A program made the translations under genes and the position numbers. DNA of 64,000 nucleotides from Gambelia wislizenii. Lineage: Eukaryota; Chordata; Lepidosauria; Squamata; Crotaphytidae. The stretch is from positions 74,989,001 through 75,053,000 of the forward strand of contig JAUMIR010000004.1 of NCBI GenBank assembly GCA_030847615.1. The letters run 5' to 3'. Shown in pieces: positions 15,691 to 57,592 of the stretch (positions are counted from its first letter, which is position 1; the number at the start of each line of letters is the position of its first letter). The notes under the pieces were generated by a model. The model ran no database searches and was not told where the DNA came from. It saw nothing but the letters and a program-made list of their open reading frames with translations.

Positions 15691-18600
15691 GCCCCCTGGA
15701 CCTTCTGAAGTTATCTCCCCCTGATCTGAAATGGTTGCTTTTCCTTCCAAACATCTCAGAGATAGTTTTGCTTCTCTACCTACTGTAATGACTTGCAAAA
15801 TCCGCAGTGTATATTAAGACTTGGTGCATTCACACTGTTAATATAGCTGAATAAAATACATGTCAAGCTTTCATCTATGTACCATCCATCCTGGCCCAAT
15901 TCATTATCAGGTGTCCCTTTTCTTTTCTTTTTCTTTCCTTTTCTTTTTTAAAAATAGGTTCTGCCTATGTGCTATCATGCTATTTCACCAACTGGGGCCA
16001 ATACAGACCAGGCCTTGGACGCTACAAGCCTGACAATATTGACCCTTGCCTGTGTACTCACCTGATCTACGCCTTTGCTGGAATGCGCAACAATGAGATT
16101 GCAACCATTGAATGGAATGATGTCACCCTTTACAAATCTTTCAATGGCTTGAAAAACCAGTAAGTGTCCATGAATAATGTATACGCCTTTCCCCTTTCTC
16201 TTTTTTCTAACATGCTGCTAAGTCACTTATCAAAGCAAACATTCAACCAAAACTATGCTCAGCTAAGTTAATGGGAACAATTTTATTCCTTGGACAAAAA
16301 TTCAAGATTGATTCCCATGATGACTATTCCAGTGGTTTATAGCATGGGCTCTTGTGTTACTTTAATCCATAGTTTTGATTAGCAAAATCATAATCATGAG
16401 ATTGTTTTGCTAGGAAAACAGATTTCTGGCCAGAACTGGTATATGATCATGATGGTGATGAAGATGATAATTTTTTGCACATCACTGGTTCACTGGTAAT
16501 CTGTCTGGTAGTGAGGCATTCACACAACCATTTCACTGTGTTCTTGCTACTCCTTACCCTGTCCAGCATGAACCATGCATTTTCCTGGACTTTAATACTA
16601 ATCAGAACTTGAAAGTTTGGGACTGGAAGTGCTCCTACAAAGTGAAGAGTAAGCAAACAGTCAGAAATGAGCTATGGGTAGCCATCTGTGGTGAGCCAGA
16701 AGTTGTTAATAAAGCCTGTAGTCAGAACTGAAGACTAAGTCAGGACTGAAGGACAATCCAGGGGCAGAACTGAGGAGCAAGCCAGAAGTCAGGATACAAG
16801 TAGATGAAGTCAGCACAAGATGCCTCAAAGCATGTCTCTTGAATCAGGACATTTGCCAGCTTAGGTTCCAGGCATTATCCACAAGATATATAGCACCATC
16901 CTGTTTTTTCTCTGTTCCTTTTTCTGCAAGATGGGTACCTTACTTTCTAAACATAATACAATGCAAGCCAGGGTTATCCACTATGGACTATCTGCTCCAC
17001 AGAAGTGAAAAAATAAATAAAACAATTGATTATCTTTTTACTGTACCAGCCAGTCTTTAAAGTACTAGAAGCAAACTCTGAAACCACATGTGTGAGGTGT
17101 TCTCAGAATATATGTCATTTTAAAAAAGAAAATCACAAAGGCATATTACAAGCTCATATCTGTCTGTTGAAACCTAGCCAAATCTGATGGTATTTTGACC
17201 AATGGAACAAGAAACTTTTTAGTACCCGTATATTCCAGCGTACAAGACGACTGGGTGTATAAGACGACCCCCCAATTTTTAAGTTAAAATATAGAGTTTG
17301 CCCCCCACCCCAGCCAGCCAGCCACCTGGCTGGAAAGCCTGTCCCCCACCAGCCAGCCAGCTCAGTGGCTGTAGATGATGGAATAGTCTGTGAAATTAAA
17401 GGACTGAGAACAGCTAAAAAAGCATGGGATACTTTGAAAAATCTCTGTGGTGTTCAATCTTTGGAAAGTAAGGTTGCATTAATACTGTAAGTTGGTTAAT
17501 ATGAAGCTATCAAATCCCAAATTTTTGAATGAGCACATTAATGAATGAGCACATTAATGATTTTAGAGCCACATTGGCAGACAAGAGAATTTCACCATAG
17601 ACAAAACTTGATGCAAAATGATAAGTTTAAATCCAGAAATTCTAATTTTAGGCTAACTTGTCCTGAAACGAAACATCATTTTGACTCTCCTGAGCTAAAT
17701 GGAGGGCCATTTAACACTTCAAAGGCAAAGCAGTCATTCTCACAGCAGGAGGAAGGATCTGCTGGGGAAACTGCCCAGGCCATTTAACACTTCAATCATT
17801 CTCACAGCAGGGGAAAAGATCTACTGGGGTATAAGACCCCCCACACACTTTTGAGGAGATTTTCAAGTGTTAAAAAGTAGTCTTGTATGCAGGAATATAC
17901 GGTATCTGTGCAACTAGAACACTAGTTACACAAGGTGTGTTATCAGTTGGCCTTGAAAACCAAGAAGAAGCAGCAATTCATTCTTGAATACTTAATAAAT
18001 TGCGATAGGAATATGGTTCAAGATTATGAAAGCAGCCATAATCTGTGGAGAGCCAGATGTCCATAGTCACTTTTTTGATTCCTTGTGCCACAGAATCTAG
18101 AATTCATCTCTGTAATCTTTCCCATTACAGGAATGGAGACCTGAAAACTCTCCTGGCAATTGGAGGCTGGAACTTCGGAACAGCACCGTAAGTTTGAAGC
18201 ATTCCCCTAGTCCTCCATCCAATCAGTACTAGCAAGAACACATGCAAGAAGTAGACAGCTCTCTTAAATCAGCCCTTTATAACCACCTTTCAGGTTCACC
18301 GCAATGGTTTCCACTCCTGAGAACCGCCAGACCTTCATCAATTCTGTCATCACATTCTTGCGCCAATATGGTTTTGATGGGCTGGACTTTGACTGGGAGT
18401 ACCCTGGCTCTAGAGGCAGCACTCCTCAAGATAAGTCCCTCTTTACCGTCCTGGTTAAGGTAAAGTCACTGTCTATGTATTTCTTATTTCCCTCAGGGCT
18501 TGGGCTCCAGGGCCCCTGAGAGTGGGATCACAAACCAGTAATGCCCCGCCACCTACAACCAGCAGCCTCCCCCAGACTCCTACCTGATGTCATTCTTTGA

Positions 18601-21600
18601 CCCACAAACAGAGGCTGCCCCTTCCCACGCCATGTGCCCCTCAGCAGACTGATTTGGGCCAGGCAGAAGATGTTCAGGAATTTCTCTCAGAGGCACAGGA
18701 GTTAGCAAAGAACTGGGAGAGCTGCTTACACAGGCTGTGGAGATAGAGAAGCTGCATACATCTACATTTGTATATTTACTCTTTGTACAGCCCCTTGAGC
18801 AAGGCCTTAAAATATCCATAAGCTGAATCTCATCAGGGTTTTAATCATTAAACCTGATTCTTCAGTATCTTCAGATATGTCCCTCCCCTACACACCCACC
18901 AAGGTTTGAATGGGATGCACTCCAGTTTTTGTTTTTTCCAAGATTTCTATGAACAGGTAACAGCCTAAACATTATTTTGGAACCTCTAGTTTAGGTTAGA
19001 GTTCTGCTCTTACAAGAACCATGCTTGTTTCCTTGTTCTTTGAAAGCCAGGAAAACAAAAGCCAGGATCCAATAGGGTGGTGCCACTGAGAGAACTACTT
19101 CCAGCAATGGAACTGTGGAAGTAATAATCCCCCTTTCCCTGCAGTCCTTAATGCACTCTCAAACCTTGCTCTTCAGGCGGCACTATCTTAACTTTAAATT
19201 TGGGGCAATGAAAACAGCACATGAGTAAAACCTTTGTGCATAATCAGTACAGAACCACAGAAATAATAGAAAATAGGTTTTATTGTTTTACCATACAGTA
19301 ATCCAAAGATGCTTCTAAGAAAAATGTGAAAGTTTTTCAAACAAGCAGGAATATTCTGAGCATGACGGCACTTTTCTTTTGGCTACAACTGATAGGGAGA
19401 TCATCAATAAAGGATGCTGGGCCAGTGGAACCAGCTTGCTCAGAATGTCAACCATAACAAGAGCTCTGAGTTCTGCCTTATTATCTTGTAGGAAATGTTG
19501 GAAGCTTTTGAGCAGGAGGCCCAGAAAACAAACAGGCCCAGGCTGATGGTCACTGCTGCTGTTGCTGCTGGACTTTCCAATATTGAGTCAGGCTACCAGA
19601 TTCCTGAGCTTGGCCAGTAAGTACAGCAATTTCACAACTTCAGATTTTAACTGCTCTCTCTTTTTAAATGTCTACCTTTTGTTATCTGCATGGATGAAGA
19701 TCCCATGACACTGGGGATTAATATACTACCACATAATGTATATCATAATGGTTGTCAGTTGTATAGTGTCTGAGCAGCAGTGTGAAAAACATTTCTCATT
19801 GATGAAATACTAAATCAGCATTTGCATGGAGCCAGAAACAGTATTAGCACTGAGCTGTTCTAAAGATAATTATTAAGGTTACAGTGGGCTTTGCAACCCA
19901 TGCTAGTGGTCAGAGACGCTGGAGGAGAGGATACTGGCACAAATGCTATTTCCCATAATCACTAGCTTTAAAACACAGAGAAATGTCTATAGTGTTATGG
20001 ACCATCACTCTAAAAAAGATGACCTGAATATGTAGAGTAAAAAACTGCAGTGATCCAGTGTTCAATCCCTAACCAAACATATTCACAATGATCATGTCTA
20101 TTTTGATGAGCAATTTGAGCCTGTGAAAGGCTTGCAGCATGCAGCTTGAATTTATAGGTCTAACTGCAGAGTAAAACCAGAATCCAAGCCATGCCAGCAT
20201 ATGTTTTGGGGGGACCCAGCAGAAGAGGGAATTCTGTACCTGCACATGCAATGTCCTCACCTTGACTCCACAACAGCAGCCAGAGAGTTGAAAGGATGCC
20301 TCTCTACCCCCATAGCCACTGATTGGTTGAAGGGTGTACCAAGGCATATCCCGGTTGCTATTCTGCACATGGAGAAGAAGGAACAGCTTTATACTTGCGG
20401 CAAAGGTTATTCCTCCCTCATCAGTGTGCAAGAGCAGCCAGAAAATGCCCACACACACTCCACTCTTGCACCTATCAGCCTGGGAGACAGTGCTTCACGC
20501 TTTCAGCCCATCAGCTGCTATTGCACACTTGGGGAGGACTTGGAGAAAAGGGAGGCGCTTCCTTACCCCAGACAACAGCATAAATACATTGGCAGAGACT
20601 TATGCTTCGCCAACATGCTTAGTGAATATCACCCTAATTAATAACATGTATTGCCAGAATCAAAAGGTATTGTACAGTGATTCTGTTTTAACAGATTTGG
20701 GGGGGGGGTAGGAAATAATGGGAAAACCCAGGAGAACTACCCACTGAAGTTTGCTTGTTTGCTTGCTTGTTTGTTTGTGATACCTGGACCCCCTATACAA
20801 TTCCGTGGCTGAAACAGCACGATTACAAAATATTTATTGTATAATCAGGCCTCATCAGGAACCACCTTTAGTAATATGGGGCCTAAGTAACTAAGTCCTC
20901 TTACTAGCTATCAAATGGTATGTTGGACACTGATGTAATTATCCCACAGGTATCTGGACTATTTCCATGTGATGACTTATGACTTCCATGGATCCTGGGA
21001 AGGTTACACTGGAGAGAACAGCCCTCTGTACAGAGGTCCTGCTGATACTGGCAGCAACATCTATTTCAACATTGTAAGTATAAGGTGAAAGCACGCACCA
21101 AGATTCCTCAAGCCTGCAATGAAGTAATGCTTAAAAAACTGCAGGCATGCAAAACTCACTATTCCATATAGGAAACAGCATATAACACAAGTATTGCTTT
21201 TATAGGACTATGCCATGAACTACTGGAAAAGCCATGGTGCCCCAGCTGAGAAACTCATTGTTGGATTCCCAACTTATGGACATACCTTTATCCTCAGCGA
21301 TCCATCCAATACTGCCATTGGTGCCCCCACATCTGGACCTGGGCCTGCTGGACCTTACACAAGACAATCTGGCTTCTGGGCTTACTATGAGGTTTGTACA
21401 TTTTTATTGATAATACAGAACCAAATTAAATCTATTCAGACACATAGCAGTCAAATTATTTTATTGACAATCTTTCAGAAACATTGTGTTTATTTTTTCT
21501 AAACATAAATCATTAATGAACTCCTCTGTACTGCCATTCTGTCATGAAACAAAACAAATAAAGCTGTGTTGCCACAGAAGATACGACTTTGGTGGCAAAG

Positions 21601-23677
21601 AATCTTCTAATGAAAATGGACCATCCGCGTCATCTGAGCATCATACATGCATTGATGGAAATAACATCCATCAGTTTGTTGTACATATAAAAACAGGAAG
21701 GCAGTCTTTTGTTGGGTTCAGAAAAGATTCTGTACAAATGAACACATTTCTAATCTGTGACTCCTTATTCAGAAAAGTCTTTTCCCACTAGAATAATCTG
21801 AAACTTGTATTGATGTTATTTAACCTGAAATAAAAAGGTTACAAATAGGATTCCAGACATCATCAAATCATTTGTGAAATCATGCAGAGAGAAAATCAAC
21901 ACAATCAAATTGAGGCATATGGGTTGGATGAGGTCATCAATATTCAGGTTTTTTAGGAATGCTGTTTAGTCAAGTGGTGCAAAAATGTTTGTGAAATACA
22001 GCAGCTAGTGAGATTTTTCTTGGAGTCAGATGAAGAGTGGAGAAGTCTTCTTCTTGACTGCCATAGACAAACAGCTGCTACTCTACATCCCTGTTTCAAA
22101 TTATATTACCATAGAGTAATATGGCTAATGCATGGTGGTTTGTAGCAATGAAGAATTGTAGATAACTGAAGATCTCTACACAATTAGCAAGGACTTGTTT
22201 GATTATAAAGCCCAACAGTTTAGCCACAAGCCATATAGATCTGTGCACTGATATTTTCAATTCACTCCCCTGTGTTATGCAAATTGCATTCTGAGATACT
22301 AACCATGACAGAAGACCTTAGATGACTTACAAGATGGCTTTTTGTTTTGTTTTTCCTCTTTCAGATCTGCACCTTCCTGAAAAATGGAGCTACTCAAGCC
22401 TGGGATGCTCCTCAGGATGTGCCCTATGCCTACAAAGGGAATGAGTGGCTTGGATTTGACAACATCAAGAGTTTCAACATCAAGGTATGAAAGAAATGGT
22501 TGATAATCCAACAACTTAAAGCATTATTCCCATTCTTCAGTGCAACAGGGACTGATGTTAGTTTCCTTCTTTGCCTCTAACAGGCTGAGTGGCTGAAGAA
22601 GAACAACTTTGCAGGTGCCATGGTTTGGTCCCTTGACTTGGATGACTTCACTGGCACTTTCTGCAACCAGGGCAAATATCCCTTGATCACCACCTTGAAG
22701 AATGCTCTTGGGCTGCAGAGTGCAAGTAAGTAGTAGCAGCAGCAGTAAGAGGAGGAGGAGCCCACAAAATGAGTGTGAACCAACATTTTAGGGAAAAGTT
22801 TGTGGCTGGATAGACCTCAACATCAGCTTGAGCCACCTCTGTGGCTTATTTTAGAATACATCTTTCAAATCAAGTTACCAAGATCAGTTAATGTTTAACC
22901 TATTTAGAATATATACATGCCAATGTAAGACGTAGAATGGACAGTAAGATGTAGGGTGGACAGGATACTATCAACACATGTTGATAGAGTAGTAGCATCA
23001 AGTGGGCAAAAATCAGGGAATGGCAGAAGCTAGTTCTGGATGCTTCTCAACCATCAAAATCTTTTAAGGGCCAAAAAAATATATTTTGATGTGCATTATG
23101 AAAGTGGAGTGAGCACCAAAGAACCAACCAGGTTTCACCACTGCTATAGAGACAATAACACAGAACCTGAAAAGAAAGAGTTACTACAGGTCAGAATTAA
23201 GTTCATGAATGACTATAAGCTTCACAATCAGAGAGTCCTTAAATTCTTGAAGGATTAATGCAGATCTAGAGAATGTGCGACCCATCAATTTAAATGAATC
23301 CATCAATCATGTATGGCAGGTCACCAGAGGCTGAATTAAATTTCTGTTCATGCTACCTGTGTGAAAATTTAAGAGGTGCATTCTCAAGTAACAGTGGCAG
23401 CTGGTGGCTCCCATGTCAGTATGTTTTGGTCTGAACTTTAAAATAACTATTGCCGGTGTTGAACCTATTTTAGAGGTAGGGTTCAGCACCTTGGACAGGT
23501 CCTTTAATGTTCAAATTTAAAGTTTACCACCCCCCTGATACAGTGACCACTAGCCAACACTGAATTGTTATGGCTGTTGATGAGATATGTTTGGCTTGAT
23601 GGGTCAAGACAGTGCAAAGATGGACTAGAATGACAGATTATGAGCCTTTGCAGTGTACAAAGTTAGAAATTGTCTAT

Positions 23678-23710
<33 letters not shown>

Positions 23711-24279
23711 ATGTCGTCAAACTGATTAGCAGCTGAGACCTTTCTCTTCTGACATGGAGGTGGATTAAGGTGCATTAGACTTTATGAAAAAGAGGAAAGC
23801 AAAGTTAAGAGAATAGTGGTTGACCTCTATAGCATGGACTAAACACAAGCACTCATAATTGTCTGTGTCAAGTCCAAAATGGTGTAAAATCCACATTTAG
23901 AAAAAAAAAAGTCAAATACAGCAGTGATTATCTGAGAGAGGAATAATAATTTTCTGCTTCTCCTTCAGGTTGCAAAGCTCCTTCCAAGCCTTTTTCTCCA
24001 CCATCCTCTGGTAGTGGCAGCGGAAGCTCAGGTGGCAGCCCCAGCAGTAGCTCTGGAGGCAGCCCCAGCAGTAGCTCTGGAGGCAGCCCCAGCAGCTCCG
24101 GTGGCAGCCCCAGTAGCTCTGGTGGTAGCGGGTTCTGTGCTGGGAGAGCTGGAGGCCTTTATCCAGACCCAACCAACAAGAACAGCTTCTACCACTGTGT
24201 GAACGGAAGAACCTTCCTGCAGCATTGCCAGACTGGTCTTGTCTTTGACTCCAGCTGTGACTGTTGTAACTGGGCATGA
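11577..24279 (+). CDS. CHIA: Acidic mammalian chitinase (GH18), tandem copy 1, 11 coding exons
   Basis: This is a spliced gene for a secreted endochitinase of the AMCase family, which hydrolyses beta-1,4-linked N-acetylglucosamine polymers. Coding exons are 11577-11601, 13277-13306, 15958-16159, 18131-18187, 18294-18459, 19492-19616, 20950-21073, 21206-21391, 22365-22484, 22584-22725 and 23969-24279. All junctions are GT-AG, the phases join without a stop, and the product is 495 residues. Residues 1-21 form a signal peptide ending in GSA. The GH18 barrel spans about 22-390, with [11 protein letters not shown] (D136, D138, E140), R145, H208, MTYD (Y212, D213), H269 and W360 all present. A Ser/Gly/Pro linker leads to a six-cysteine chitin-binding domain at 448-495 ending in CCNWA. 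Mammalian AMCase has about 476 residues; the extra length is all in the linker. No disabling change is seen. Gene assignment is by recalled family sequence; orthology to a particular vertebrate paralogue is inferred. Confidence 0.95.
12170..12555 (-). pseudogene. Non-LTR retrotransposon ORF C-terminal remnant (CHIA copy 1 intron 1)
   Basis: Two overlapping minus-strand frames encode [37 protein letters not shown] and FENSRR. These match the C-terminal tail widely seen in RTE/CR1-like LINE polyproteins (GxPxKRYKDxLK...WRxxIH...FExxR). Only about 130 codons remain. Confidence 0.6.
13526..13745. mobile_element. Palindromic hAT-like MITE in CHIA copy 1 intron 2
   Basis: Two arms pair around 13635, with CTATCCTATGGAATCCTGGT mirrored by ACCAGGATTCCATAGGATAG. 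The ends contain TGCACTGCAGAAATACAG and its inverse. Confidence 0.7.
14018..14560 (-). mobile_element. Possible LINE 3' end remnant (CHIA copy 1 intron 2)
   Basis: A (TTA)n run at 14018-14045 would be a (TAA)n tail on the minus strand. A 79-codon minus-strand frame (14312-14551) ends [12 protein letters not shown], which resembles L1-type ORF2 C-termini. The assignment is weak. Confidence 0.35.
14705..14863 (-). mobile_element. CORE-SINE, partial, in CHIA copy 1 intron 2
   Basis: GTTGTTGTGTGCCTTCAAAT through GCCCAAGGTCACCCAGTGGG; the head is missing. Confidence 0.7.
15590..15692 (+). repeat. (GAAA)n/purine microsatellite in CHIA copy 1 intron 2
   Basis: About 100 bp of purine-only sequence ending in about eleven perfect GAAA/AAAG units, 265 bp upstream of exon 3. 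Confidence 0.9.
17225..17902 (+). mobile_element. Non-autonomous DNA transposon carrying a gag-like fragment
   Basis: The left end CCCGTATATTCCAGCGTACA and the right end TATGCAGGAATATACGG are inverted repeats, with TA on both sides. It lies in CHIA copy 1 intron 3. The interior has a copia-gag-like stretch (17374-17690) and a duplicated block around GGGCCATTTAACACTTC and GGCCATTTAACACTTCAA. Confidence 0.65.
17374..17690 (+). pseudogene. Ty1/copia gag-like (UBN2-type) fragment
   Basis: Translation from 17374 gives [20 protein letters not shown] followed by [18 protein letters not shown], then a stop. Farther on, [11 protein letters not shown] appears in another frame. The spacing AKKAWDTLK...SLESK...EHINDF resembles copia gag polyproteins. 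It is degraded, and a 16-bp duplication (AATGAGCACATTAATG) lies within it. Confidence 0.5.
18294..18459 (+). CDS. CHIA: CHIA copy 1 exon 5, catalytic GH18 motif
   Basis: The exon encodes residues 105-160, including the DxxDxDxE signature [11 protein letters not shown] with the proton donor E140, and R145 five residues later. The ends are phase 2 upstream and phase 0 downstream. Confidence 0.95.
23682..23711 (+). repeat. (CT)n(GT)n microsatellite in CHIA copy 1 intron 10
   Basis: A CT run changes directly into a GT run. Confidence 0.9.
23969..24279 (+). CDS. CHIA: CHIA copy 1 exon 11, linker and chitin-binding domain
   Basis: The terminal exon carries the Ser/Gly/Pro linker and the CBM14-type chitin-binding domain. 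Six cysteines are visible (FC, HC, HC, SC, CC), and the aromatic residues expected in the sugar-binding face are present. The stop codon TGA is at 24277-24279. The linker begins SCKAPSKP, unlike the SCTAPAQP of copy 2 and mammalian AMCase. Confidence 0.93.
24031..24120 (+). repeat. In-frame 24/21-bp tandem repeat in the CHIA copy 1 linker
   Basis: Four consecutive units encode [23 protein letters not shown] and GGSPSSS. All lengths are multiples of three, so the frame is kept. This array accounts for most of the 17 extra residues of copy 1. Such a linker is likely flexible and O-glycosylated, by analogy with mucin-like linkers. Confidence 0.9.
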
Positions 24280-24312
24280 AGAGATCAGGGTTAAATTCAC
24301 TAAATTAGATTA

Positions 24313-43704: not shown

Positions 43705-46700
43705 CAGACAGATAGGTGATTTGTAAAATAGCTTTATACTGATCACTAGGAAGATACTACATAGTATTATCTTAGCATTGTTAACATCCTGGAATTATCT
43801 TCTACCTTATGAGACTGCAGACTAATTCTCAAGCAGCAATATTTATATTGTCAACTTGATTCATTTAGCTCTTTCTGTCTGAAGAACAGCTTCATAAAAA
43901 TGTTTTGTTTCATTAACAGAGCTTGGTCTTCTATATCTAGATTATATTCTTAGAGAATTCAGTCATCTAATCATGAGATCACTAGTCTGAGGATAATTCA
44001 TGACAACTTGGTGATTTCATAGATAATGCTAAAGTAGTCATCATGCAGCCATGATGTACCCAAATTACTGGGCATGGCCATGTGCATTTTATTTGAAGAC
44101 ATTTTGCTCTTTCATGAATCGCTCTGGTTCATTATGGAAACTAGGATCTACTACCATTTCCTCTTTTTTGTTGATCATAGGCTCTGCCTATCAGCTGACA
44201 TGCTACTTTACCAACTGGGCCCAGTACAGACCAGGTCTTGGACGCTTCAAGCCTGACAATATTGACCCATGCCTGTGTACCCAACTAATCTATGCATTTG
44301 CTGGCATGAAGAACAATGAGATTGCCACCATTGAATGGAATGATGTGACCCTTTACAAATCTTTCAATGGACTGAAGAACCAGTAAGTAGTTTGATGACA
44401 AGTTATTTCTGGTTTAGCATTCTTATAGAGCCATCTGAAGGTCAGCTAACCAGGCTGCCTCTTTGAAAACCTCTGTATACTTAGTAACTAAGGCCTGTAG
44501 ATTATATATAGGACAGGCAAGTATAAAAGACTTTGTTCACATACAGCAAGACTGAGGAGGCTTTGGCCCTTGAAACATTTTGGAGTCCAACTCCTACAAT
44601 CCCTTAGCATTGGGCATGCTAGAGGGTTCATAAGAGCTGTTGGCCAAAAGATCAGGAGGAACAGCAGTTCCCCAACCCTTATGTACAATTTCCTAAAATG
44701 CATTAATGTACCAACATTCCAACAACAATAGTTGTATTCTTTTTTTTAAATGGATATGCAACATGAACATCTGATTTGCCCAAGTCATAGCAACTATGTT
44801 TAAAAACTTCTCCATGGCTTTGATCACAATGATTACTATTGCAATCCATCATCGCCTATAACAAGCAATGCTCAAGTCAGGTGTGTAATTCTGGGCTTTA
44901 TCTTTAGAAGCTTGGCCAGATGTCACTCTGCTGACCCACAGAAACCCAAGATCATTAAAATGGGCATTCTTGTCTGAAGTAGAGCCCTTCAACCTGTTCT
45001 GATGGCCAGTCAATCATGCATACACCATTAATGAAAATATTAGGCCATATTTTGGTTTGGCTATGCTTTGAAAACAAAACAGACTGGCCATAAAATATTC
45101 TGAGCTTAATATTGACTAACCTTGCTGTTTCACCTATGTTCAAACTGCCCCTGAAGGGGGGGAGGGGACAGAACACATTGTAAATTGCCACTGCTTGAAA
45201 TGGAAATGTTTTGAATTTCATACTAGGAAATTCTAGGAAAGGCAAGCAAAATGGCGATGGGGGCCATGTCACTGAAGTTAACCTCACTGAAGTTATCCAT
45301 GTGGAATTTATATGCTAGAATTCTCTTGGTGACTTAAGTGTGCATGATCAGTAGCAGTATAAGGGGTGACATATTCTTGTATCACCAGGGGTAACACACA
45401 TACTGGTAGATAATTTTTGTACCATTGCACAAGAAGGTACCCAGTACCTCCTTGCAATAGTGGGCTGTTTCCAGCTGCACAGATTGAAGCCTGACGGCTT
45501 TTGGGTGCAGCTCACCTTCCTGCCTCAAACAGGAACTGGTTGTCTATGGGGGCACTGGAAAAACTCCCTCCATGCTTGTCACTCTCCTAATAGCTTTTGC
45601 CCTCCCAGATCTTTTCTGTCCCCAAACAGACTATCAGCATAAGTATCTGCCAACATCAAAAAGACTCTTGGCCATTGTGTGAGAAATAGCATCACTGACA
45701 TTTAAGAACACAACTGCTTCCCATCCAACTCAGGAAGATAATCAGTATGAGGATGCTGAATCAAGAATCAAAACTGAACTTTATAATTCTCTCAATTATA
45801 TATTCACAGGAATGGACAACTAAGGACTCTTCTGGCTATTGGAGGATGGAATTTTGGAACAGCACCGTAAGCCCACAGCATTTTTCTTGGGAAGCCATCA
45901 TAGTGGGCTTCGACTAAAACACTGCATCTGAAAAATCATCACTTGATTTTGGGATTTGAAAGGAATGTTCTCAAAAGCCAAATCAGTCATGGCACAGGAT
46001 GATGTTCAGGTTCTGAACATATGGTTTGCCTCACTTCCTTGAGACTTGGAGAGCTGTTTGCTCTTTGACAAATGCATGCAGAAACCTGGATGTATGATTG
46101 CTGTGTACCATTTTTAAGATTGTGAGGCTTTACCTTGGGACAGGGGGTTGGATTTGATGGTCCTTTACAGATTATTATGAGTAATACATTATCTTTTCTT
46201 GCTATTATATTTTATTGTTGCAGAGCAGAGTGGAATGAATGCTGGTTATAGCTGTTTCTTCTGATGTACCAATTTCCTCTGTTGTTTTGCCTAGATTCAA
46301 TGCAATGGTTGCCACTTCTGCAACCCGCCAGACTTTTATCACCTCAGTCATCAAATTCCTTCGCGAGTATGAATTTGATGGTCTGGATTTTGACTGGGAG
46401 TATCCTGGTTCTCGAGGCAGCACTGCTCAGGATAAGGATCTCTTTACTGTTCTGGTTAAGGTAACAGTATTTCCATATTCTGTTCTGGTTCACCATAATT
46501 TTATACGGCATTGCCATAGATGCTAAACATACAAGCAGAAAAGTTTCAAAGTAACCAAGTGCAAATATATGTGTGTTACTTGCACCATATTAATTACTGC
46601 CAGCCACATTAAGTACAATGCAGGCAGATGATAAACAGCATCTATGGCTATTTAGATCAATGGATCCCTGGTTTTTCTCCAAGAACTCAGTTCTTCTCAG

Positions 46701-49700
46701 GCAGCATAGAAAGGATGAAGAACATGTGGCCCTCCAGAAGTTGTACTGCAATTCCTATGTCCCCAGTTTCAGGATATTCAAAATGTAAGATAATAAAATG
46801 TAAAGTCCATTCACTACAGAGTATGCATTCAGGTAATTCCCATTTTTCACCTGTTCTGCTGTTGAATACTGGGCATATATCATACATAAACAAGGGTTTC
46901 CTCTCTCTAAACTGAGAGCAGGAAGACAGTACCGGTATATGGTGGTATTGAAAGATTTTATCTGCACTACTTCTTTTTCATAGGAAATGCGGGAAGCCTT
47001 TGAACAGGAGGCCCAGCAAACTAACAAACCCAGACTGATGGTCACTGCTGCTGTGGCTGCTGGACTGTCTAACATTGAATCAGGCTATCAGATCCCACAG
47101 CTTGGCCAGTAAGTACTGTGATTTCAGATAGACTAAGCAGCTGATGTAGAGCAATGTGTCATAGGGGGAAGTGGTTTTGCTGCAACACAAATGGAGCGGG
47201 ACTTTCCTTGTTGTCTGTACTTCTGCTGGCCAGGAAAGAAACACAGCCCTTTGAAGGGGATATGAAAACCGTGTTTGCTGAGAGGGAGGAGGGGAAGGAG
47301 GGAGATGCTACAGTGTCAGACCCTATCTCTGCCCTTTCCCCCAAAAGCCTACATATATTTTTGTGGTTTCCTAACTTTGTAGGTCTCCATGATGATGATG
47401 ATGCTATTGCTAAAACACCCAGAAACCACAGCCAGCATGACTACTTGTGAAAGTTGTAATCCAAAAAAGTAATGTTCCAAGCTCTGTGTAGGAGAGATGA
47501 CTGTTATCAAGCTATTCTGACAACAGCTTCTGAGACAGCACTGAACAAAAGGCAGGGTGACAGCCCTAGAACAGCCATAGTCAACATATCCACAGAACTG
47601 AGATGAAAAGGAGGTCTAGGAGGTGCTATTATGCTCATCCTTCCTATTACAAAGCTTTCTCCTGATAAGCTATATTGCACAACACAGAATTTTACAATGG
47701 GCCCTGACATCACTTTTTTAAAAATATAATCTTCCTCTAATGTTCTCCCCTGCACTACTTTGTGTTGTTGTTTTTCTTGCTACAAAAATCCATTAAGGAA
47801 GGAAAGATGGGATATATGTATACAGTTGGCCCTCAACTTTCACAAGGGTTAGGTGCACAGTAGCCTCGCAAAAGTGAGAAAACCATGAATAACGGCCCTC
47901 TATTTTTATTTTTATTTTTTACCTGACCTGAGAGAACACTTCTCCAGGAGTTTGTAGGTCCTCCAGCATGATTCTATGATCAACTTCCACCAGAATGCTT
48001 AACTTGCAAATGTGGAGAGACAACTGTATATCGTATTCTGAATGGTAGTAGCTGTCCATCTTGAAATATTCCTCCAATCAGCTAGACCAGCCTTCTCGAG
48101 ACTGATGTTCTCTATATGAGTTGGACTGTAACAACCATCCAAACAGTGTGGTCATGGGACGATGTCAGCTGTCGTCCAACACATCTGAAGGTTGCTACAT
48201 TGGGGGAATGCTATACTCGACCCTCAATGTTGCAGGCATTTCAGGGAGAGCAAAGTGCTCAGATGTGTGAGCTGAGGGGAGAAGAGGCATCTTAAAATTA
48301 TTCCTGGTAGAAGCAGAAAAACTGCCAAGCAGCTGTGCTCAGGAGCACTGAAACGTTCTACATAATCTATGGCTAGGGGACATGGCACCAACAGAAGGCC
48401 AATATATCTGCCTTCTGATTTGCACAGATATACTAACAAAATAAAAAAGGAAGCTCCACCAGGGCTTGATAAGCTATTTTAAAAGTTCATCAGGGCAGCA
48501 AACATCAGCCATGCAATGGATCATCCCTTCTTTAAAGCTAGTACAGATGTCTTTATTGGACAATTCTTTATATATGGTTGGAACACACATGCCAATAACA
48601 GCACCATTTATAGTAGAGGCTGCACAGTTTCTTTACAGTGTAAAACTACTTTGAATACCTGGCTAAATATATTATTTCATTCTCAGCTATTTGTCAAAAA
48701 AAATGAAGAAAGCCTGTATTATATGTATATAACGAGTGAGCAAAGAACAGGGGGGAAATTGCTATTCCCCATTGTGTTTATAAGAACTGCTGCAGAGATT
48801 ACCACAACAGATACTCCTGTTCAAAACTCTGAGCTTGTCAGATTAGCAAACTGGACAGATATGAAGCAAACACTAAATCTGACTGTATCCTCACATCCCC
48901 TACAGGTATCTGGACTATTTCCATGTGATGACCTATGATTTCCATGGCTCCTGGGAAGGATACACAGGAGAGAACAGCCCTCTCTACAGCGGTCCTGCTG
49001 ACACTGGTAGCAACATCTACTTCAATGTTGTAAGTATATTATGGATACTTGGTAACTAATAGCTGGATGAACTTGCCTCAGCAAAGTGTAAGAATATAAC
49101 AGCCTTCTAGATTAGACCATAGATCTCTCCTCCATCCTGTTTCCTAGGTGGCCAACCAGATGTCTTCCATCCATAGGTCCTTAGAGAAGCTCTTGTCATA
49201 TTTGTTAATTTTCCTTATAGGACTATGCCATGAACTACTGGAAAAATCATGGTGCTCCAGCTGAAAAACTCATTGTTGGATTCCCAACATATGGACACAC
49301 CTTCATCCTCAGCAACCCATCCAATACGGCTGTTGGTGCTCCAACATCTGGCCCTGGGCCTGCTGGACCTTACACAAGACAGTCTGGGTTCTGGGCTTAT
49401 TATGAGGTATGTGTGCCATAGATGTTGTCATAACATGTACTAAATTACAAAAATTATCAATAATATATAACTGACATGATTGCAGCAAATGTCTGGTCTT
49501 ATTATTAGCTGTCTCTGGCTTATACTGTACATCATTATAAGTTATTAATGTAAACTGTGCCTGGTATATTATTAGGTGCAAGAACTGTGCACAGTATAAA
49601 TCTTTGGACAGTCCATAATTTTTCTATTTAGAGACAGCATATGAAATCAAAATTCATAGTGAAAGGCTTTAAATTCATCCCTATAAGATAAAGCCTGTCT

Positions 49701-50124
49701 AACTATATGCTTCTGGTGCACTCATTTCTATATAACAGATTACTGGTTCAAGCAATAAATCATAGAACATCACTGAATTCTTTTGATAAACATGAGCAGT
49801 TTAAGAATTACAATTAAAAGTTAAGCTCAATATATAAATTCCAAGGAATGCAATTTCCTCCTATGTTTGCTATTGAAAAACACTTTAAAATGTTTTTGTT
49901 TGTTTTTTTTGCCCTGTGTCTCTGCTGGCTCATCTAGCCACCGGATGCTAATTATAACTGCATGCCCTTCCCATTCTAGATCTGCACCTTCTTGAAGAAT
50001 GGAGCCACCCAGGCTTGGGATGCTCCTCAGGATGTCCCTTATGCTTACCAAGGGGATGAGTGGGTTGGTTATGACAACATCAAGAGCTTCAAGATCAAGG
50101 TATGCTGAACGTAGACCCAATCTC

Positions 50125-50156
<32 letters not shown>

Positions 50157-50923
50157 TGATTAATTTTGGTGCACCAGAATCTTTTTTCCTGTTGATTGAT
50201 ATTTTGTTTCCCCCTTCAAAGGCTGAATGGCTAAAACAGAACAACTTTGGAGGTGCCATGGTTTGGGCCCTTGACTTGGATGACTTCACTGGAACATTCT
50301 GTAACCAAGGAAAATACCCCTTGATTACCACCCTGAAGAACGCTCTTGGACTAGAAAGCGCCAGTAAGTAGCAACAGCAAAGAACCTTCATAAACGAACT
50401 GCCATCACCAGTTGTAGTTTAGCATGTGCAGATTCTATGACAATACAGTGTGAACCTTTAGAGACTTGACCATGTACCAAAGACTCAAGAATGCAAACAA
50501 TGTCACACACATTGTAGGCTGCATACTTCGCATGGCATTTTCTCATTTATCAGTACATTGCTGACACCCTCTGTACCACAGTAGCTTGAATGTTGAGACT
50601 GGATGTAGAGGCACAACATTTACTTTTTGGACTTAAACTCCTTAAATCCCACAGACCTGGGGGAGGGTGTGTTCTAGGACCTCTGATGCAAACAAGTAAC
50701 TTTTCCAAGCTCTGTACAGAAATTGTAGTTTGAATCTATGCTTAGTGATTCAAGTTACTGATTGACTTTGAAAAAGCAACTCTTTTTCTACATAACTTCT
50801 TATACCTAATTAATGCAGAGAGAAAAGTAACTAGAAGTATAAAATACTGTGGCTGGAAGCCTGCATCAGGAGATGTACTTGCATCACACAGTTATGTCTC
50901 CATAGCTACATCTCCTGATGCTA

Positions 50924-50957
<34 letters not shown>

Positions 50958-52036
50958 TGTAAGCAGTTCAGCTCCACCCACCCAATAGCCACTTGTGTTG
51001 TTGGAGGGTAGAGGGATCAATGTACAGGCTATTTTCCTGTAGCTGGACACACTGTAACAGGCATCCCACAGGGACTTCTGGGGGTCCTTGTGAGGTCCCT
51101 GCAAATCATGTCTTTGCAGTGCATCCAGCTACCAGAAAACAGCTGGATGCATCCTTGTTGATCCCCCTGCTCTTTGACAGCACAGAAAGGGCCAGGTTGA
51201 GGGAGGGTTATAGTTTCAAGGGGATTTTGATCACTGCAGTTAGAACAGAATTCTGACCTCCACAGCCACAACAAAAATGAGTTCAGACGGTATAAGTCTG
51301 ACTTAACACCTTTATACTTCCCCAACAGGATTTCAGCTTCTGTATTATTCCTTCAGCATACATACAGTTAGGCTACTGTTTCATACTCATGATTATTATT
51401 TAGTCATGATTGTGACACTATTGCTATGATTGTAACTCACCCCACCAACCTACATTACCGGGTATCTGCTGAATGGGGAGAAGGAGGGCCATTCTGCAAA
51501 CAATCAGAGCACAGTTGAACGAAGTTTGGGGTGGGGGGTCAGGCCAGGAGAAGTTACTTAGTTAAGTACTTAGTTAAGTATTCCAGCCTATAGTTTTTGG
51601 TTTTGAGAATTTTGTGAGAATTTTATATTTGAGCATTTAGTGATGGGCAGGTTTTTATGGTTTCACAAGGTTTGGGCCTAAATAAGGAACAGGTAATTGG
51701 GCACAAAGAATGAACACATACTGATCATGCTGGGACACATACTGATCTAAGTGTGTGATGCTCCTTTCTGTTTCAGGCTGCACTGCTCCTGCCCAGCCCA
51801 ACCCTCCAATCACAGCTGCTCCCAGTAGTGGAGGAAGTGGCAGTGGAAGTTCTGGCAGCGGTGGCAGTCCTGGCAGCGGTGGCAGTGGTTTCTGTGCTGG
51901 CAAAGCCAATGGTCTCTACCCTGTGGCCAACAACAAGAATGCTTTCTGGCACTGTCTGGATGGAACCACATATGAGCAGCATTGCCAGACCGGCCTAGTC
52001 TTTGACACAAGCTGCAGCTGTTGCAACTGGGCATAA
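40906..52036 (+). CDS. CHIA: Acidic mammalian chitinase (GH18), tandem copy 2, 11 coding exons
   Basis: This is the second AMCase gene, same orientation, starting about 16.6 kb after the stop of copy 1. Coding exons are 40906-40930, 43505-43534, 44181-44382, 45810-45866, 46295-46460, 46984-47108, 48906-49029, 49221-49406, 49980-50099, 50222-50363 and 51777-52036. Exons 1-10 match copy 1 base for base in length, and all junctions are GT-AG. The product is 478 residues: signal peptide 1-21, GH18 barrel with D136, D138, E140, R145, H208, Y212, D213, H269 and W360, a short Gly/Ser linker, and a chitin-binding domain at 431-478. Length and linker (TAPAQP, ITAAPS) agree closely with mammalian AMCase, so this copy looks like the more conserved paralogue. 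No frameshift or premature stop is seen. Confidence 0.95.
41690..41893 (-). mobile_element. MER2/Tigger-like remnant in CHIA copy 2 intron 1
   Basis: Contains TTGTATCCCTACGGGGTCCC and AGCAGATCCAAAGGGCCTGC, the inverse of the family end GGATACC...GGACCCC. Boundaries are approximate. Confidence 0.45.
43662..43713 (+). repeat. (GATA)n/(GACA)n microsatellite in CHIA copy 2 intron 2
   Basis: A compound run of CAGA/TAGA tetranucleotides about 130 bp downstream of exon 2. Confidence 0.9.
46295..46460 (+). CDS. CHIA: CHIA copy 2 exon 5, catalytic GH18 motif
   Basis: The exon encodes [16 protein letters not shown] with D136, D138, E140 and R145 intact. It is the same length as its copy 1 counterpart. 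Confidence 0.95.
47823..48026 (+). mobile_element. Tigger-like MITE in CHIA copy 2 intron 6
   Basis: 204 bp with termini CAGTTGGCCCTCAACTTTCA and TGTGGAGAGACAACTG, flanked by TA on both sides. It lacks the GC-rich tandem interior of its relatives. Confidence 0.75.
50130..50156 (+). repeat. (AT)n(GT)n microsatellite just after CHIA copy 2 exon 9
   Basis: Lies in the 122-bp intron 9, about 30 bp from the donor site. Confidence 0.9.
50924..50955 (+). repeat. (CA)n microsatellite in CHIA copy 2 intron 10
   Basis: About 16 CA units. Confidence 0.9.
51777..52036 (+). CDS. CHIA: CHIA copy 2 exon 11, linker and chitin-binding domain
   Basis: The terminal exon ends in CCNWA and a TAA at 52034-52036. 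The linker is irregular Gly/Ser with only a short [12 protein letters not shown] echo, unlike the clean repeat of copy 1. All six chitin-binding-domain cysteines are present. Confidence 0.93.
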
Positions 52037-52111
52037 AATCAGATTCTCTGGCTCTTACTTGTGTACAATCCCAATGGAAATTATTTTTTCAGCTTAAACT
52101 CATGACAACAA

Positions 52112-53383: not shown

Positions 53384-53397
53384 TCTGTTTTTTGAAC
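53384..53397 (-). terminator. Candidate snRNA 3' box downstream of U2
   Basis: On the minus strand GTTCAAAAAACAGA begins about 23 nt after the U2 3' end. It resembles the GTTT-N-AAA-R-NN-AGA box that directs Integrator cleavage of pre-snRNA. Confidence 0.5.
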
Positions 53398-53420
53398 CAA
53401 AATTATTCTCCTCAGAAGGA

Positions 53421-53567
53421 GGTGCACCATTCCTGGAACACTGCAATACCAGGTTGATGCATGGAGTGGAGAGCAAGCTCCTGTTCCATCTCCTAGTCCC
53501 AAAAATCCATTTAATATATAGTTCTCAATTAGAGACTATATCAGATATTAAACTGATAAGAATAGAT
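53421..53567 (-). pseudogene. U2 snRNA gene, 3' part (about nt 38-187), interrupted
   Basis: Read on the minus strand this matches vertebrate U2 snRNA from nucleotide 38 to the 3' end. It shows TTATCAGTTTAATATCTGAT, the Sm-site context ATTAAATGGATTTTTGG, GAGCTTGCTC, and ACCTGGTATTGCAGT, ending in GGTGCACC. Differences are mostly C-to-T or G-to-A, as expected from CpG decay. The 5' 40 nt lie 3.7 kb away at 57284-57323 on the same strand. A 3'-box-like sequence follows at 53384-53397. U2 is the spliceosomal RNA that pairs with the intron branch site; this copy cannot be functional. Confidence 0.9.
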
Positions 53568-53889
53568 TAATCATTTTATTAGAGAATATTTATAAATACA
53601 ATTTAACATGACAATATAACATAATACATAATAAACCAAAGAATGCAATTGCAAAAAAAAGTACAGTAGAATAATAAACATAATAAATATATATAAAGCA
53701 AATCTCATTCCTAGGATAAGTTAAATTCTTAAAACATATTTTAAGAGAACAAAACATACTAAAGGAGACCAATAATATATTTTACCTTCAGATCACTATG
53801 TGATCACTAATATATCCAACAGATGCATACCGTACATAGACTATAAATAATTTCTAATATAGAAAAGCTATTCCAATTTTTTTCACCTC

Positions 53890-54725
53890 TTCTCTGCAAG
53901 TGCAAAAACTGACTCCTCATACTGACAGTGGCCTGAAATATGCTTGATATAAATGTTTCGGGACCATCTAATGGTATCTGATACTATTAGCCTGCACATG
54001 AGTTTAGTATAGCATCTTCCTACCCCACAAACTCTCATTACGGGCTCATTTGCTGGGTCCCAGCCACCCAGGGCTACTACAAATAATGCATGAACAGCGA
54101 CCTCATATCGCCTTCATCACAGTACATCAGCCAGAGGGGTATACTTCTGGTGTATATGTTCTCTAGCCTCCTTCATGGTCGGTTTCTTGTTTTCAAAGGG
54201 GATTGTGATGTCCATGATGATTATCTTTTTCTGGTATTTGTCCATAGTAACGATGTCCAGTCTCAAATGGCTACCTGCTTCAGGCACAGTTCGATTTAGG
54301 TAGATGGTGTTCATTGAGGCTGGGATGGCTTTAGCCAGTCGGTTCGTTATTGTGTCATGCCAATGTTTCCAGGCTGTTGAGTGTGGGAGATAGTTACAGA
54401 GCATGTGTGGTAGTATCTCATTCGTGTGACCACAGTGACAGCAATGTTTATCATGGTTGTGAGATTTCATGGCACCATTGAGAGGCACAATGTTCAGGAG
54501 AGCTCGGTGGATAAATCGCAATTTGGTAAAATGGGTATAATCACCACATGGTATAAAATGATTGCTTGAGTCCCATTGCAAGGTTATCTCAAAAATTTTG
54601 CCCTGATCAGGTTTGCTCAGAAGAGCAGTGGTATATTTCCCCCTTAAGAGTTCTTCCAGTGAACTTTCTAGCAGGTGCCTTGTTTTATGGGAGAAAACTA
54701 GTACCACTGGTAGGTTCCCTTTCAT
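53890..54725 (-). pseudogene. Utopia-like zinc finger and restriction-like endonuclease fragment
   Basis: An uninterrupted 202-residue stretch (54117-54725) includes CCHCGHTNEILPHMLC, a CCHC-type finger as in R2-group elements. It is followed by RLDIVTMDKYQKKIIIMDIT, which fits the R-PD...D endonuclease core but with proline replaced by leucine. Another frame continues with GGWDPANEPVMRVCG and IRWSRNIYIKHI, matching the C-terminal tail of R2-type proteins. The protein would end near 53890. Both frame breaks show it is dead. Confidence 0.8.
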
Positions 54726-54729
54726 GGTG

Positions 54730-55250
54730 GTGAGCTGCGGACCCTCTTCTGGAACCCAAACTCATTGGCACCCAATTAGTTTGCTAAGGCAGTGGGTTGT
54801 TTTCTGGGTACAAGTGAAGAGGGAAGAGAAGGCACCACCATCACATCCAAATTCATTTTCCAGTGACCCAAAGAGATTATGTGGCCAGGTCACCGTCAGC
54901 TGGAGTTCTATCTATATGCTTTTGGACAACTTCCTTAAGGGAGCCTAGAGCAACAGATTTCATAGTCTTCTCAGGGCAAGTGAGGAGGCAGAACACATGA
55001 ATGATGGTTGCAGCATCCCCTGAGTCCCCCAGCTTAGGAATCCCTGTTCCTCCATGTCGCTAAGCAACATGCAAGATGTCATTAGTGGCTCATTTGGGAA
55101 GACAGCCACTTTTTAAGTAAGCAATGATTGCTCGCTCAACTCTGCTAAGTGCTGTTTTCTGGACCAACGATCCCCGGAGAGCAAAGTCGATCCTTGGAAT
55201 GTCCTAAGCACGTCGATCTTTTGCCATGGGGCTAAGAGAGACTCATATAA
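54730..55250 (-). pseudogene. Utopia-like connection region between RT and endonuclease
   Basis: Minus-strand translation in one frame reads IDFALRGSLVQKTALSRVER, AIIAYLKSGCLPK and RHGGTGIPKLGDSGDAATI, separated by stops. These blocks are typical of the region after RT in restriction-like-endonuclease elements. The sequence continues beyond the solo LTR at 55764 with AWITDAKK. Confidence 0.7.
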
Positions 55251-55254
55251 TTTC

Positions 55255-55758
55255 TGTTATGTAAATACGAAGTCCACTCTGCCTAGCAAGGCAGTAAAAC
55301 TGTTGCAGAGTTTCAACAAAAGATGTGAGCTTTGAGCAAAGAATTGCATATCTCTGGTAAGAATTCAATAAAGTCTGAAAAGTCTTCCATAGCTTTATTG
55401 TAAGATTAACAAGTTAAACAAAAATACAGAGAGCATTCATTTATGCTTCTGTGTCTCGCCAAGGTTTCTTCAAAACTAGCAGGGAAAAGGAGCTTGCATT
55501 GCATGGCACCAAAAACTCCCTTGCTTTTATAATAAAATACTTACAATACATTCAGTCTGCTCTGAGAAAGGAAAGTAACTATTCCCATCTATGCTTTGTT
55601 TACCTAGCCTTGAAAAGAAAGGCTCAAAACACAAACCAGGGCACCAATCCTGACAGATTTGCAACCTCCAGCAAAACTAGCTGGCTGTTTCTGCCTGGTG
55701 ATTAAAATTATCCAAAGGAACTCATGAATTCCAATTACAATATCCATTTTCCCTGACA
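55255..55758 (-). mobile_element. Solo LTR (retroviral/LTR-retrotransposon) nested in the Utopia RT
   Basis: The 504-bp unit begins TGTCAGGG and ends CATAACA on the minus strand, so it has TG...CA termini. It is flanked by perfect 5-bp duplications ATTTC (55250-55254 and 55759-55763). A TATA-like TTATTATAAAAG and a downstream AATAAA are in the expected promoter and polyadenylation order. Removing it rejoins the interrupted retrotransposon protein frame (ITDAKKLYESLLAPWQKID). No gag, pol or env lies next to it. Family not identified. Confidence 0.85.
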
Positions 55759-55957
55759 ATTTCTTGGCATCCGTTATCCACGCAATGGCATGGAGAGTAG
55801 CCTCAGGGGTCTGGCAGCTTCAGAAACCTGTTGGAGTGCCTAGATGTTGGTAGATATCTCCTTCTTTAAGATGGATCATATGTTTCCTTTGGATGGTAAC
55901 GGGAATTGGTAAAACCTGATCTTTCAAGCTCCCATTAACATGAAGTGTTGCACACTT

Positions 55958-56401
55958 TTAAGCACTGAAGCTGAGGCCCATCTCATCTGCAGCATGTGCA
56001 GCTGCATTTAACATGTGTTGGAGCTCTCTGGGCTTCTCAGCTACCAGGACTAAATCATCGACATCGGCTAGGATGCTCACTTTATTTCCATATAGGTTAA
56101 AGCCTCCAAGGCCGTTGATGATATAATGAAGGAAGGGCTCCATAGCGAGGTTGAAAATAATTGGGCTAAGTGGGCAGCCCTGTTTTACCCCACAGCGGAC
56201 CCGAATTTCTGCAATCTCACCTTCCACAGCCCACACTATACTACTACAGTTGTTATAAAGTTCATGAAGAAGGTCAAGAAATGCTGAAGGCATGCCCAGT
56301 TCAGCCAAGGTGTCAAGGATGTGACAGTGAGGAACAGAACCAAAAGCATTGCTAATGTCAAGCCAAGTGTAGTATGTGGGGAAATCATTATTGTAATGCA
56401 A
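55958..56401 (-). pseudogene. Utopia-like reverse transcriptase fragment
   Basis: The 147-residue open stretch contains TWLDISNAFGSVPHCHI (RT motif with the first catalytic aspartate), RCGVKQGCPLSPIIFNLAMEP (the highly conserved GxxQGxPLSP block), and ADVDDLVLVAE at the usual YADD position, where the tyrosine is lost. It stops at a TAA after GLSFSA; the same frame continues with KCATLHV, typical of this RT group, so the stop is a decay mutation. About 100 residues of the N-terminal RT seem to be missing. Confidence 0.85.
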
Positions 56402-56423
56402 TACAATCTTGTGTATCCCATGT

Positions 56424-57120
56424 TATGTTCAGTTTAGGAATTTTCCCTGCATGCATCAGTTCTTCCACTCCCCCCTTCTCCTTTCACTAGGCAATTTCAG
56501 CCAACTGGAGCAATGGGTCATTCATCACATGAGATAATTTAAATATTATTACACTTTGTCTAAGTTCCTTTTAAGTTAAGGCTCCATGCGGCTGTCGCCA
56601 TGTTGGCAGTCTGTTAGCAGTCTTTGAGTCCTTTTTAATAGAGTCATCATGTAGCCCACACTGCTTAAGGCTGGGTGAGTCTTTTCCTACCCTAAATCCT
56701 CTTAGTTAGCTAGGGACCTTTTAAAGTTTGTTTTAATATGTAGATTAAGATTGATATACCTTCAGTAAACTTTTGATATGCTTTTTAAACTGACTTCTTT
56801 GTTGTTTTAATGAGTCTAATTGATTGGGTGATCGGACTACACATTTAAATGTTAATTGAGCTGTGTTTGCATTCCGATGCCTTTTACTCTGCTTGCTTTG
56901 AAAGAAAAGTGTTTTTACTTTTAAAGAGGATATTTTTATTTTTAACAGGGCTAGATCCCTGGAATTTTTAATACATTTTTAAATTTTAGACTCATACCTC
57001 CAACACCAAGCCACAGTGGGATCACAGGGGGCTGTTGTGTCAGTTGGTTTCCTTTGGTGGACTGGGGTTTCGATGCCCTCACTTCCAGTGGAGGCTTCCA
57101 AATCCATAGCGGTTGAGACA
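56424..57120. other. Unidentified sequence between the Utopia RT and the second 3' UTR copy
   Basis: No RT motif or known repeat recognised. It could be Utopia 5' sequence or an unrelated later insertion. It ends at a U2-like ATCAGTTTAAT (minus strand) at 57122-57132. Confidence 0.4.
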
Positions 57121-57132
57121 AATTAAACTGAT

Positions 57133-57283
57133 ATCCTTTTATTAGAGAATATTTAGAAATACAATTTAACATGACAATATAATATAATACATAATAAGAC
57201 CAAAGAATGCAATTGAAAAAAGTACAGTAGAAATATAAACAGTATAAACAATATACAGTATATAAAGCAAATCTCATTCCTAG
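57133..57283 (-). repeat. Second copy of the Utopia 3' UTR end
   Basis: This 151-bp segment closely matches 53568-53718, including TTTTATTAGAGAATATTT and GCAAATCTCATTCCTAGGAT on the plus strand. It abuts U2 nt 40 on one side and AATTAAACTGAT (U2 nt 47-57 on the minus strand) on the other. It is either a separate 5'-truncated insertion or one product of recombination between U2 copies. Confidence 0.8.
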
Positions 57284-57323
57284 GATACTACACTTGATCT
57301 TAGCCAAAAGGCTGAGAAGCAAT
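57284..57323 (-). pseudogene. U2 snRNA gene, 5' part (nt 1-40), interrupted
   Basis: On the minus strand this reads as the first 40 nt of U2, including CTTTTGGCTAAGATCAAGTG and the branch-site recognition element GTAGTA. There are about two substitutions near the 5' end. The match stops exactly at ...GTAGTATC, where retrotransposon 3' UTR sequence begins. With 53421-53567 it makes an almost complete U2, the ATC at nt 38-40 being present on both sides. Confidence 0.9.
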
Positions 57324-57356
57324 ACCAATGCACTTTGAAGACACAGTAGAAAGATT

Positions 57357-57380
57357 CTCCAGTGACATCTGAGGTGACCA
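57357..57380 (-). promoter_or_regulatory. Candidate proximal sequence element (PSE) of the U2 gene
   Basis: On the minus strand, TCACC begins 54 bp upstream of the U2 5' end and is followed by a TGTCACTGGAGAA context. Vertebrate snRNA PSEs sit near -55 and commonly start with a TCACC-like core. The match is partial; position is the stronger evidence. Confidence 0.5.
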
Positions 57381-57584
57381 AGAGTAAATGAATGCTTCAA
57401 AGAGCTCAGTGCTGTATCAGACTCAGTAGAGATTGTAATTCCACATGATGTACTCTGAGAAGTGTACATCATGTTTCCATCATGTGAGAAAACAGACTCT
57501 GACAGAAAATTTAATCTGAAAAAAATCTGTGAATTCCTTCAACCTCATCATCACTTTGGTTGCTCCGATGGCTATTAATGTGAT

Positions 57585-57592
57585 ATTTGCAT
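57585..57592 (-). promoter_or_regulatory. Octamer of a candidate distal sequence element (DSE) of the U2 gene
   Basis: A perfect ATGCAAAT octamer in the U2 transcription direction lies about 262 bp upstream of the U2 5' end. U2 enhancers carry an Oct-1 octamer at roughly -220 to -250. A chance match at a plausible position is unlikely but possible. Confidence 0.5.

Follow-up and report, generated by a model that had tools for sequence, protein, structure and literature searches.

Kojima and Jurka (2015, PMC4640811, available in part) describe the Utopia non-LTR retrotransposons of reptiles as insertions in U2 small nuclear RNA (snRNA) genes that make a 20-bp duplication of the target, with U2 picking up again at nt 39 behind them. 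Here we analyze such an element in a 64,000-nt stretch of the genome of the lizard Gambelia wislizenii (contig JAUMIR010000004.1, 74,989,001 to 75,053,000; hereafter the window), where a U2 gene lies in two pieces. The families in the available part of that paper agree with the window element in the U2 target, the resumption at nt 39, the 20-bp duplication, the restriction-like endonuclease (RLE) and the existence of copies outside U2 genes. The same part gives tandem insertion of Utopia for Nasonia alone, whereas here we find stacks in the U2 genes of a vertebrate-type genome, as well as Utopia beside the heads of U2 retropseudogenes.

Other described systems share some of these features. Keno, of the Tx1 clade, has the same 3' flanking U2 position, but according to the available part of PMC4640811 it carries an apurinic-type endonuclease; the RLE of the window element therefore disfavors its identity as Keno. 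R2, whose proteins have been solved (9nl2, 9nl3, 9dou), matches the window element by sequence in both reverse transcriptase (RT) and RLE, but R2 targets 28S rRNA genes and the window element sits in U2. Finally, tailless retropseudogenes of U2 are known from mammals, and the class as such from the green anole. As described in the accessible text of PMC5322556, they are cut on the 3' side and carry target duplications, like the U2 heads discussed below; a difference from that text is that the heads here also appear to serve as landing sites for Utopia. In the available part of PMC4640811, Kojima and Jurka leave open by what means elements directed at a low-copy gene persist. Our literature searches, limited to partly available sources, returned no report of Utopia stacks in reptiles or of Utopia in U2 retropseudogenes.

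Two Utopia Insertions Very Probably Share One Site in a U2 Gene

All features of the split U2 locus are on the minus strand. U2 nt 1-40 occupy 57284-57323 (Rfam U2 match 57222-57323, 49.2 bits, E 9.3e-07) and nt 39-187 occupy 53421-53566 (Rfam U2 match 53417-53602, 102.1 bits, E 1.9e-19), in agreement with an initial annotation of this DNA that had described a U2 gene split into two pieces on the same strand. Beyond these pieces, Rfam gave no further U2 match in the window. The annotation had also read the split as the work of one insertion, and the DNA between the pieces contradicts this. Directly after U2 nt 40 comes a Utopia tail of 154 nt (tail A, 57134-57287), which would be a second, 5'-truncated insertion. 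Aligned with the 3' untranslated tail of a longer Utopia copy that lies directly before U2 nt 39 (tail B, 53567-53879), it gives 139 identities, 7 mismatches and 12 gap columns. Tail A begins inside the element, at TATCCTAGG; because its first 4 nt, TATC, are also U2 37-40, its 5' joint is a 4-nt microhomology.

Tail A is followed by U2 nt 47-58 (57122-57133), which end exactly at nt 58 and are what is left of the duplicated 20-bp target, nt 39-58. Next comes TTGTCTCAACCGCTATGGATTTGGAAGCC; its final portion is the 5' end of Utopia. The 12 bases of U2 nt 47-58 occur twice in the window, in this remnant and in the 3' U2 piece, and a Markov estimate puts the chance of such a match within 12 positions at ~2e-6. 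The 5' end of the longer copy (57048-57121) matches that found in L009/L037, where a nearly identical Utopia start likewise stands directly behind a Utopia tail.

Given the 20-bp duplication of nt 39-58 and the resumption at nt 39, the window can be read as U2 1-58, Utopia and U2 39-187, the upstream copy of the site having received a further, truncated Utopia. A single insertion splitting U2 at nt 40 is ruled out by the second tail and by the U2 nt 47-58 in between. We conclude that two Utopia elements very probably inserted at one site in one copy of a U2 gene that is now dead. Their order is left undecided by tail divergence, tail A differing at 9/149 and tail B at 5/150 positions from the majority of 15 tails.

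The window U2 gene is dead and is not young. The intact U2 gene L055 of this genome served as the reference. The 5' piece departs from it at 2/40 positions, each of them CpG; in the 3' piece, 11 of the 145 positions that align are different, including 4 CpG, and there are 5 gap columns. Every one of the 6 CpG in the intact U2 has changed in the window copy.

The Same Order at an Unlinked U2 Locus

The same stack, with its duplication intact, is found at an unlinked locus, C4:16260333-16259540 (L078, L084). The order there is a U2-gene promoter (aligned with the intact genes, its upstream 62 nt reach a score of 108), U2 1-33, a truncated Utopia tail carrying a later insertion, the full TCTGTTCTTATCAGTTTAAT, and a Utopia 5' end; the 20-bp duplication of nt 39-58 is thus complete in L084. 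About 4.2 kb further on, in the same direction, a U2 39-187 half stands behind a Utopia tail (L062).

Such loci place both cut positions of a Utopia of this kind better than the window could by itself. Behind the Utopia tail, U2 resumes at nt 39 in all nine aligned split copies, the window and eight others, and for the upper-strand cut 58/59 is the best placed position that the sequences offer. The initial annotation had put the target site at the junction of GTAGTATC with TGTTCTT, but this boundary, nt 40/41, is the 5' joint of the truncated copy. The insertion site is therefore 38/39, and not 40/41.

The Inserted Element Is Very Probably of Utopia Type

An RT fragment lies at 55819-56367, with a Pfam RVT_1 match in the open reading frame (ORF) 55958-56422 (69.1 bits, E 5.4e-19). 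It scores 60.9 bits against R2 proteins and 40.4 bits against L1, and homologous DNA is present in L037, L038, L044 and L050. Further downstream, 54117-54761 hold a C-terminal CCHC knuckle and RLE fragment, identified by a profile match to R2 proteins. This profile, built with six pieces from other loci, hits three R2 sequences in their RLE region (E 1.3e-7 to 1.1e-5), besides one unrelated chain (E 0.84). When searched alone against PDB, the RLE ORF gave just an unrelated match (E 0.82), and an AlphaFold model of the fragment alone, with a mean predicted local distance difference test score (pLDDT) of 43.9, was not used.

The copy is incomplete. Its N-terminal zinc-finger region is missing, and comparison with other loci shows that a stretch without Utopia homology, at ~56368-57047, replaces part of the 5' half. 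In addition, a solo long terminal repeat (LTR) of 504 nt (TG...CA; 55255-55758) with the duplication GAAAT lies inside the longer Utopia copy and is absent from L037 and L050. A start similar to that of the LTR, TGTCAGGGAAAA, stands behind the Utopia tail in L043. The Rfam matches up to E 2, four in all, include no ribozyme family for the Utopia 5' end. Among the stretches of viral contigs that fit a pattern (12 and 3), none was a relative.

Its target, junctions, duplication and RLE support assignment of the element to the Utopia type. The annotation had proposed the same, and the proposal is supported by the RLE, the U2 target and junctions like those of published reptile Utopia. It had likewise placed RT and RLE fragments in one orientation between the U2 pieces, which is correct; the attribution of everything between the pieces to a single element is not.

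The Target Was Very Probably a Gene Copy

The flanks of the window U2 support the view, also taken by the annotation, that the target was a DNA copy of a genuine U2 gene and not a retropseudogene. We took the consensus of the proximal sequence element (PSE) and of the 3' box from the available part of PMC5493778; parts of PMC3499247, PMC3544641 and PMC3464664 were consulted as well. Downstream, a 3' box, GTTCAAAAAACAGA (53384-53397), begins 24 nt past the end of U2, fits GTTYN0-3AARRYAGA as the sole match on both strands of the window, and aligns with the intact genes. In all, the 45 nt of 3' flank share 32 identities with the intact genes L055 and L058 and 30 with the intact gene L059, all of the same genome, and these alignment scores were reached by 0/300 shuffles and 0/500 random window stretches.

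Upstream, the predicted perfect octamer, ATGCAAAT, is present at -269 to -262 (57585-57592). Counted from the same end, it begins at -265 in L055 and L058 and at -264 in L059. The hexamer ATTGGT at -6 to -1 (57324-57329) is identical in the U2 genes of C12 and differs from L059. Of the features claimed by the annotation, the 3' box and the octamer were thus recovered, and the 3' flank, octamer distance and ATTGGT together argue for a gene copy. The proposed PSE fared less well: TCACC does stand at -54 (57373-57377), but it is weak, matching 6/12 consensus positions with a score reached by 15% of all window 18-mers, and it is not carried at that position by the intact U2 genes whose sequence was read.

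Intact and Split U2 Genes in the Genome

The genome contains 45 U2 matches. Five are intact genes, at C12:258151389, 258156653, 260213772 and 260218349 (196.7 bits each) and at C4:16311561 (181.1 bits); the upstream side was read in all five, and the whole U2 with its downstream side in four (L055, L056, L058, L059). At least 22 of the 45 are 3' halves split off by Utopia, of which 18 adjoin Utopia tail matches by their coordinates, as judged by eye, and 4 were recognized on reading (L060-L063), the other 18 of the 45 lying outside this classification. These tail matches come from a search in which 40 out of 344 candidates were scored. In L060, U2 39-187 behind a Utopia tail shows 0/149 differences from the intact gene, which points to recent activity of Utopia.

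Seventeen of the 22 split copies fall at C12:265.4-270.8 Mb. The three C12 loci read there, L029, L030 and L036, have long homologous flanks in common, implying that many of the C12 copies are probably a few insertions multiplied by duplication. Overall, the five intact genes and many Utopia-split copies lie in two U2 regions, C12:258-271 Mb and C4:16.25-16.31 Mb.

Utopia beside U2 Heads outside U2 Genes

U2 nt 4-30 were found, with <=3 mismatches, at 433 places in the genome, intact and split genes included, and the reversed pattern at none. We read 20 exact heads among the matches listed (L064-L083). All except one, the C4 split gene, leave U2 at nt 33-42 and continue into unrelated DNA. Repeats between the upstream and downstream sides exceeded the 99% level of 342 mismatched pairings in 10 of these 19 heads and did not in the other 9. 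By sequence, the 19 heads fit tailless U2 retropseudogenes.

We also surveyed 20 further Utopia loci, none of them in the window, at L031 or in the C12 cluster. A U2 head lies <=90 nt from the Utopia 5' edge in eight (L033, L034, L035, L037, L038, L040, L045, L050) and not in the other 12. L033 and L034 may have been favored, because the tail-search query held U2 1-40; without them, heads stand at 6/18 loci, compared with a chance of ~9e-6 per insertion. Across the 181 kb of the 20 loci, six heads with <=4 mismatches to the 27-mer lie at Utopia edges, one lies at the intact gene of C4, and there are no others.

In L045, the repeat of the retropseudogene lies outside and a 21-bp Utopia duplication inside (17/21 alike, by eye); in L034, the head lies outside a 26-bp duplication (22/26 alike, by eye). 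These positions indicate that the head predates Utopia at both loci, where a chimeric U2-headed RNA or a short interspersed element (SINE) is rejected as the source of the head. A chimeric RNA is also unlikely at L035, which has U2 38-106 on the 3' side; it may account for the heads at L038, L050, L033, L037 and L040. One of these, L037 (C22:177692000-177701500), contains U2 6-36, a truncated Utopia and, immediately behind it, another Utopia 5' end. This is a further stack, away from the U2 gene loci and at a U2 head, with no duplication in between.

Weighing the Stacked Insertion against Other Origins

Could two U2 genes, each hit on its own, have produced the stack through unequal exchange or gene conversion? 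Utopia-bearing U2 genes are clustered and have been multiplied, as the long homologous flanks common to L029, L030 and L036 show. However, the unlinked C4 locus has the same order with another Utopia subfamily, a 5' joint at nt 33 rather than nt 40 and exactly nt 39-58 in between, and the window holds no other U2 match; we regard exchange as improbable. Even less probable, in our judgment, is a U2 retropseudogene as the target. Utopia does adjoin short U2 heads at 8 of the 20 further loci, and in L045 and L034 the head came first, but the window U2 runs full length to nt 187, has a 3' box and an octamer at the right distance, and aligns in its 3' flank with the intact genes at scores reached by 0/300 shuffles and 0/500 window stretches. 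Its upstream 62 nt also outscore 19/19 sampled retropseudogene heads and 7/7 Utopia-bearing heads, by a small margin (8 vs 3). Equally hard to credit is the idea that U2 nt 1-40 and tail A were copied from one chimeric U2-Utopia RNA, made by a template switch and inserted as a unit. At loci that lack a U2 gene, U2 heads immediately precede truncated Utopia copies, and in L050 a 12-bp repeat flanks the whole unit, which would suit this origin; but the window's octamer and its ATTGGT ahead of nt 1 are features of a U2 gene, and the duplications in L045 and L034 put the head before Utopia.

Several observations weigh against two stacked insertions in a genuine gene. Of the duplicated nt 39-58, the window has kept 12 of 20 bases and lost 8, and the Utopia 5' end and the U2 half ~4.2 kb on at C4 were read as two separate stretches. 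Furthermore, the upstream homology is modest: the score of the upstream 62 nt against L055 was reached by 0/300 shuffles and 4/500 window stretches, and that against L059 by 21/300 and 80/500. The corresponding counts for L058 are 0/300 and 8/500; over the upstream 300 nt, the scores were reached by 0 shuffles and 22 window stretches (L055), 0 and 35 (L058), and 5 and 108 (L059). The upstream evidence for a gene origin therefore rests mainly on the octamer and its position.

A Possible Route to Stacks and Spare Sites

Two successive Utopia insertions could be explained as follows. The lower strand would be nicked at U2 38/39, and the nick would prime reverse transcription; with the upper strand cut at 58/59, insertion would duplicate nt 39-58. 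Upstream of the first insertion, nt 1-58, including the site, would remain as a rebuilt site. Apparently because the first insertion copies part of the target and leaves the site open, a second hit could follow at the same spot: the rebuilt site would take a second, truncated Utopia, its upstream joint falling at nt 36-40 through the shared TATC. The reverse order of the two insertions would yield the same final structure. Later, all 6 U2 CpG would have been lost, the LTR inserted and part of the 5' half of the element lost. We infer the nick at 38/39, the cut at 58/59, the re-use of the rebuilt site and the recognition of upstream U2 from what is observed, namely the junction positions, the duplication, the stacks at two unlinked U2 genes and the L037 stack. 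A model for RLE elements with duplications has been published (PMC6895275, available in part).

More generally, we lean toward the view that the 20-bp duplication rebuilds the element's own target, giving head-to-tail stacks, and that tailless U2 retropseudogenes (nt 1 to ~36) act as spare sites, the upstream half of U2 being recognized. If true, this would help to explain both the persistence of an element whose specific target gene has about five intact copies and the apparent weak specificity of reptile Utopia. With 5 of 45 U2 matches intact, at least 22 split, one of them recently, and with stacks and head-adjoining Utopia copies, this genome offers a test of survival on a low-copy target.

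Other Features of the Window

Pfam gave no family at 1e-3 for nine other window ORFs (9/9), and a tRNA scan of the window found none. Long ORFs at 4137-8981, on the minus strand, look LINE-1-like by eye and have no Pfam family at 1e-3. A GC-rich 63-bp tandem array of 14.5 copies occupies 2911-3793, and similar GC-rich repeats stand behind the Utopia tail in L007/L040. Lastly, 44157-52037 and 15934-24280 share eight colinear blocks at 72-91% identity, with offsets of ~27.5-28.2 kb, and mark an old segmental duplication, which stops short of the U2 locus.

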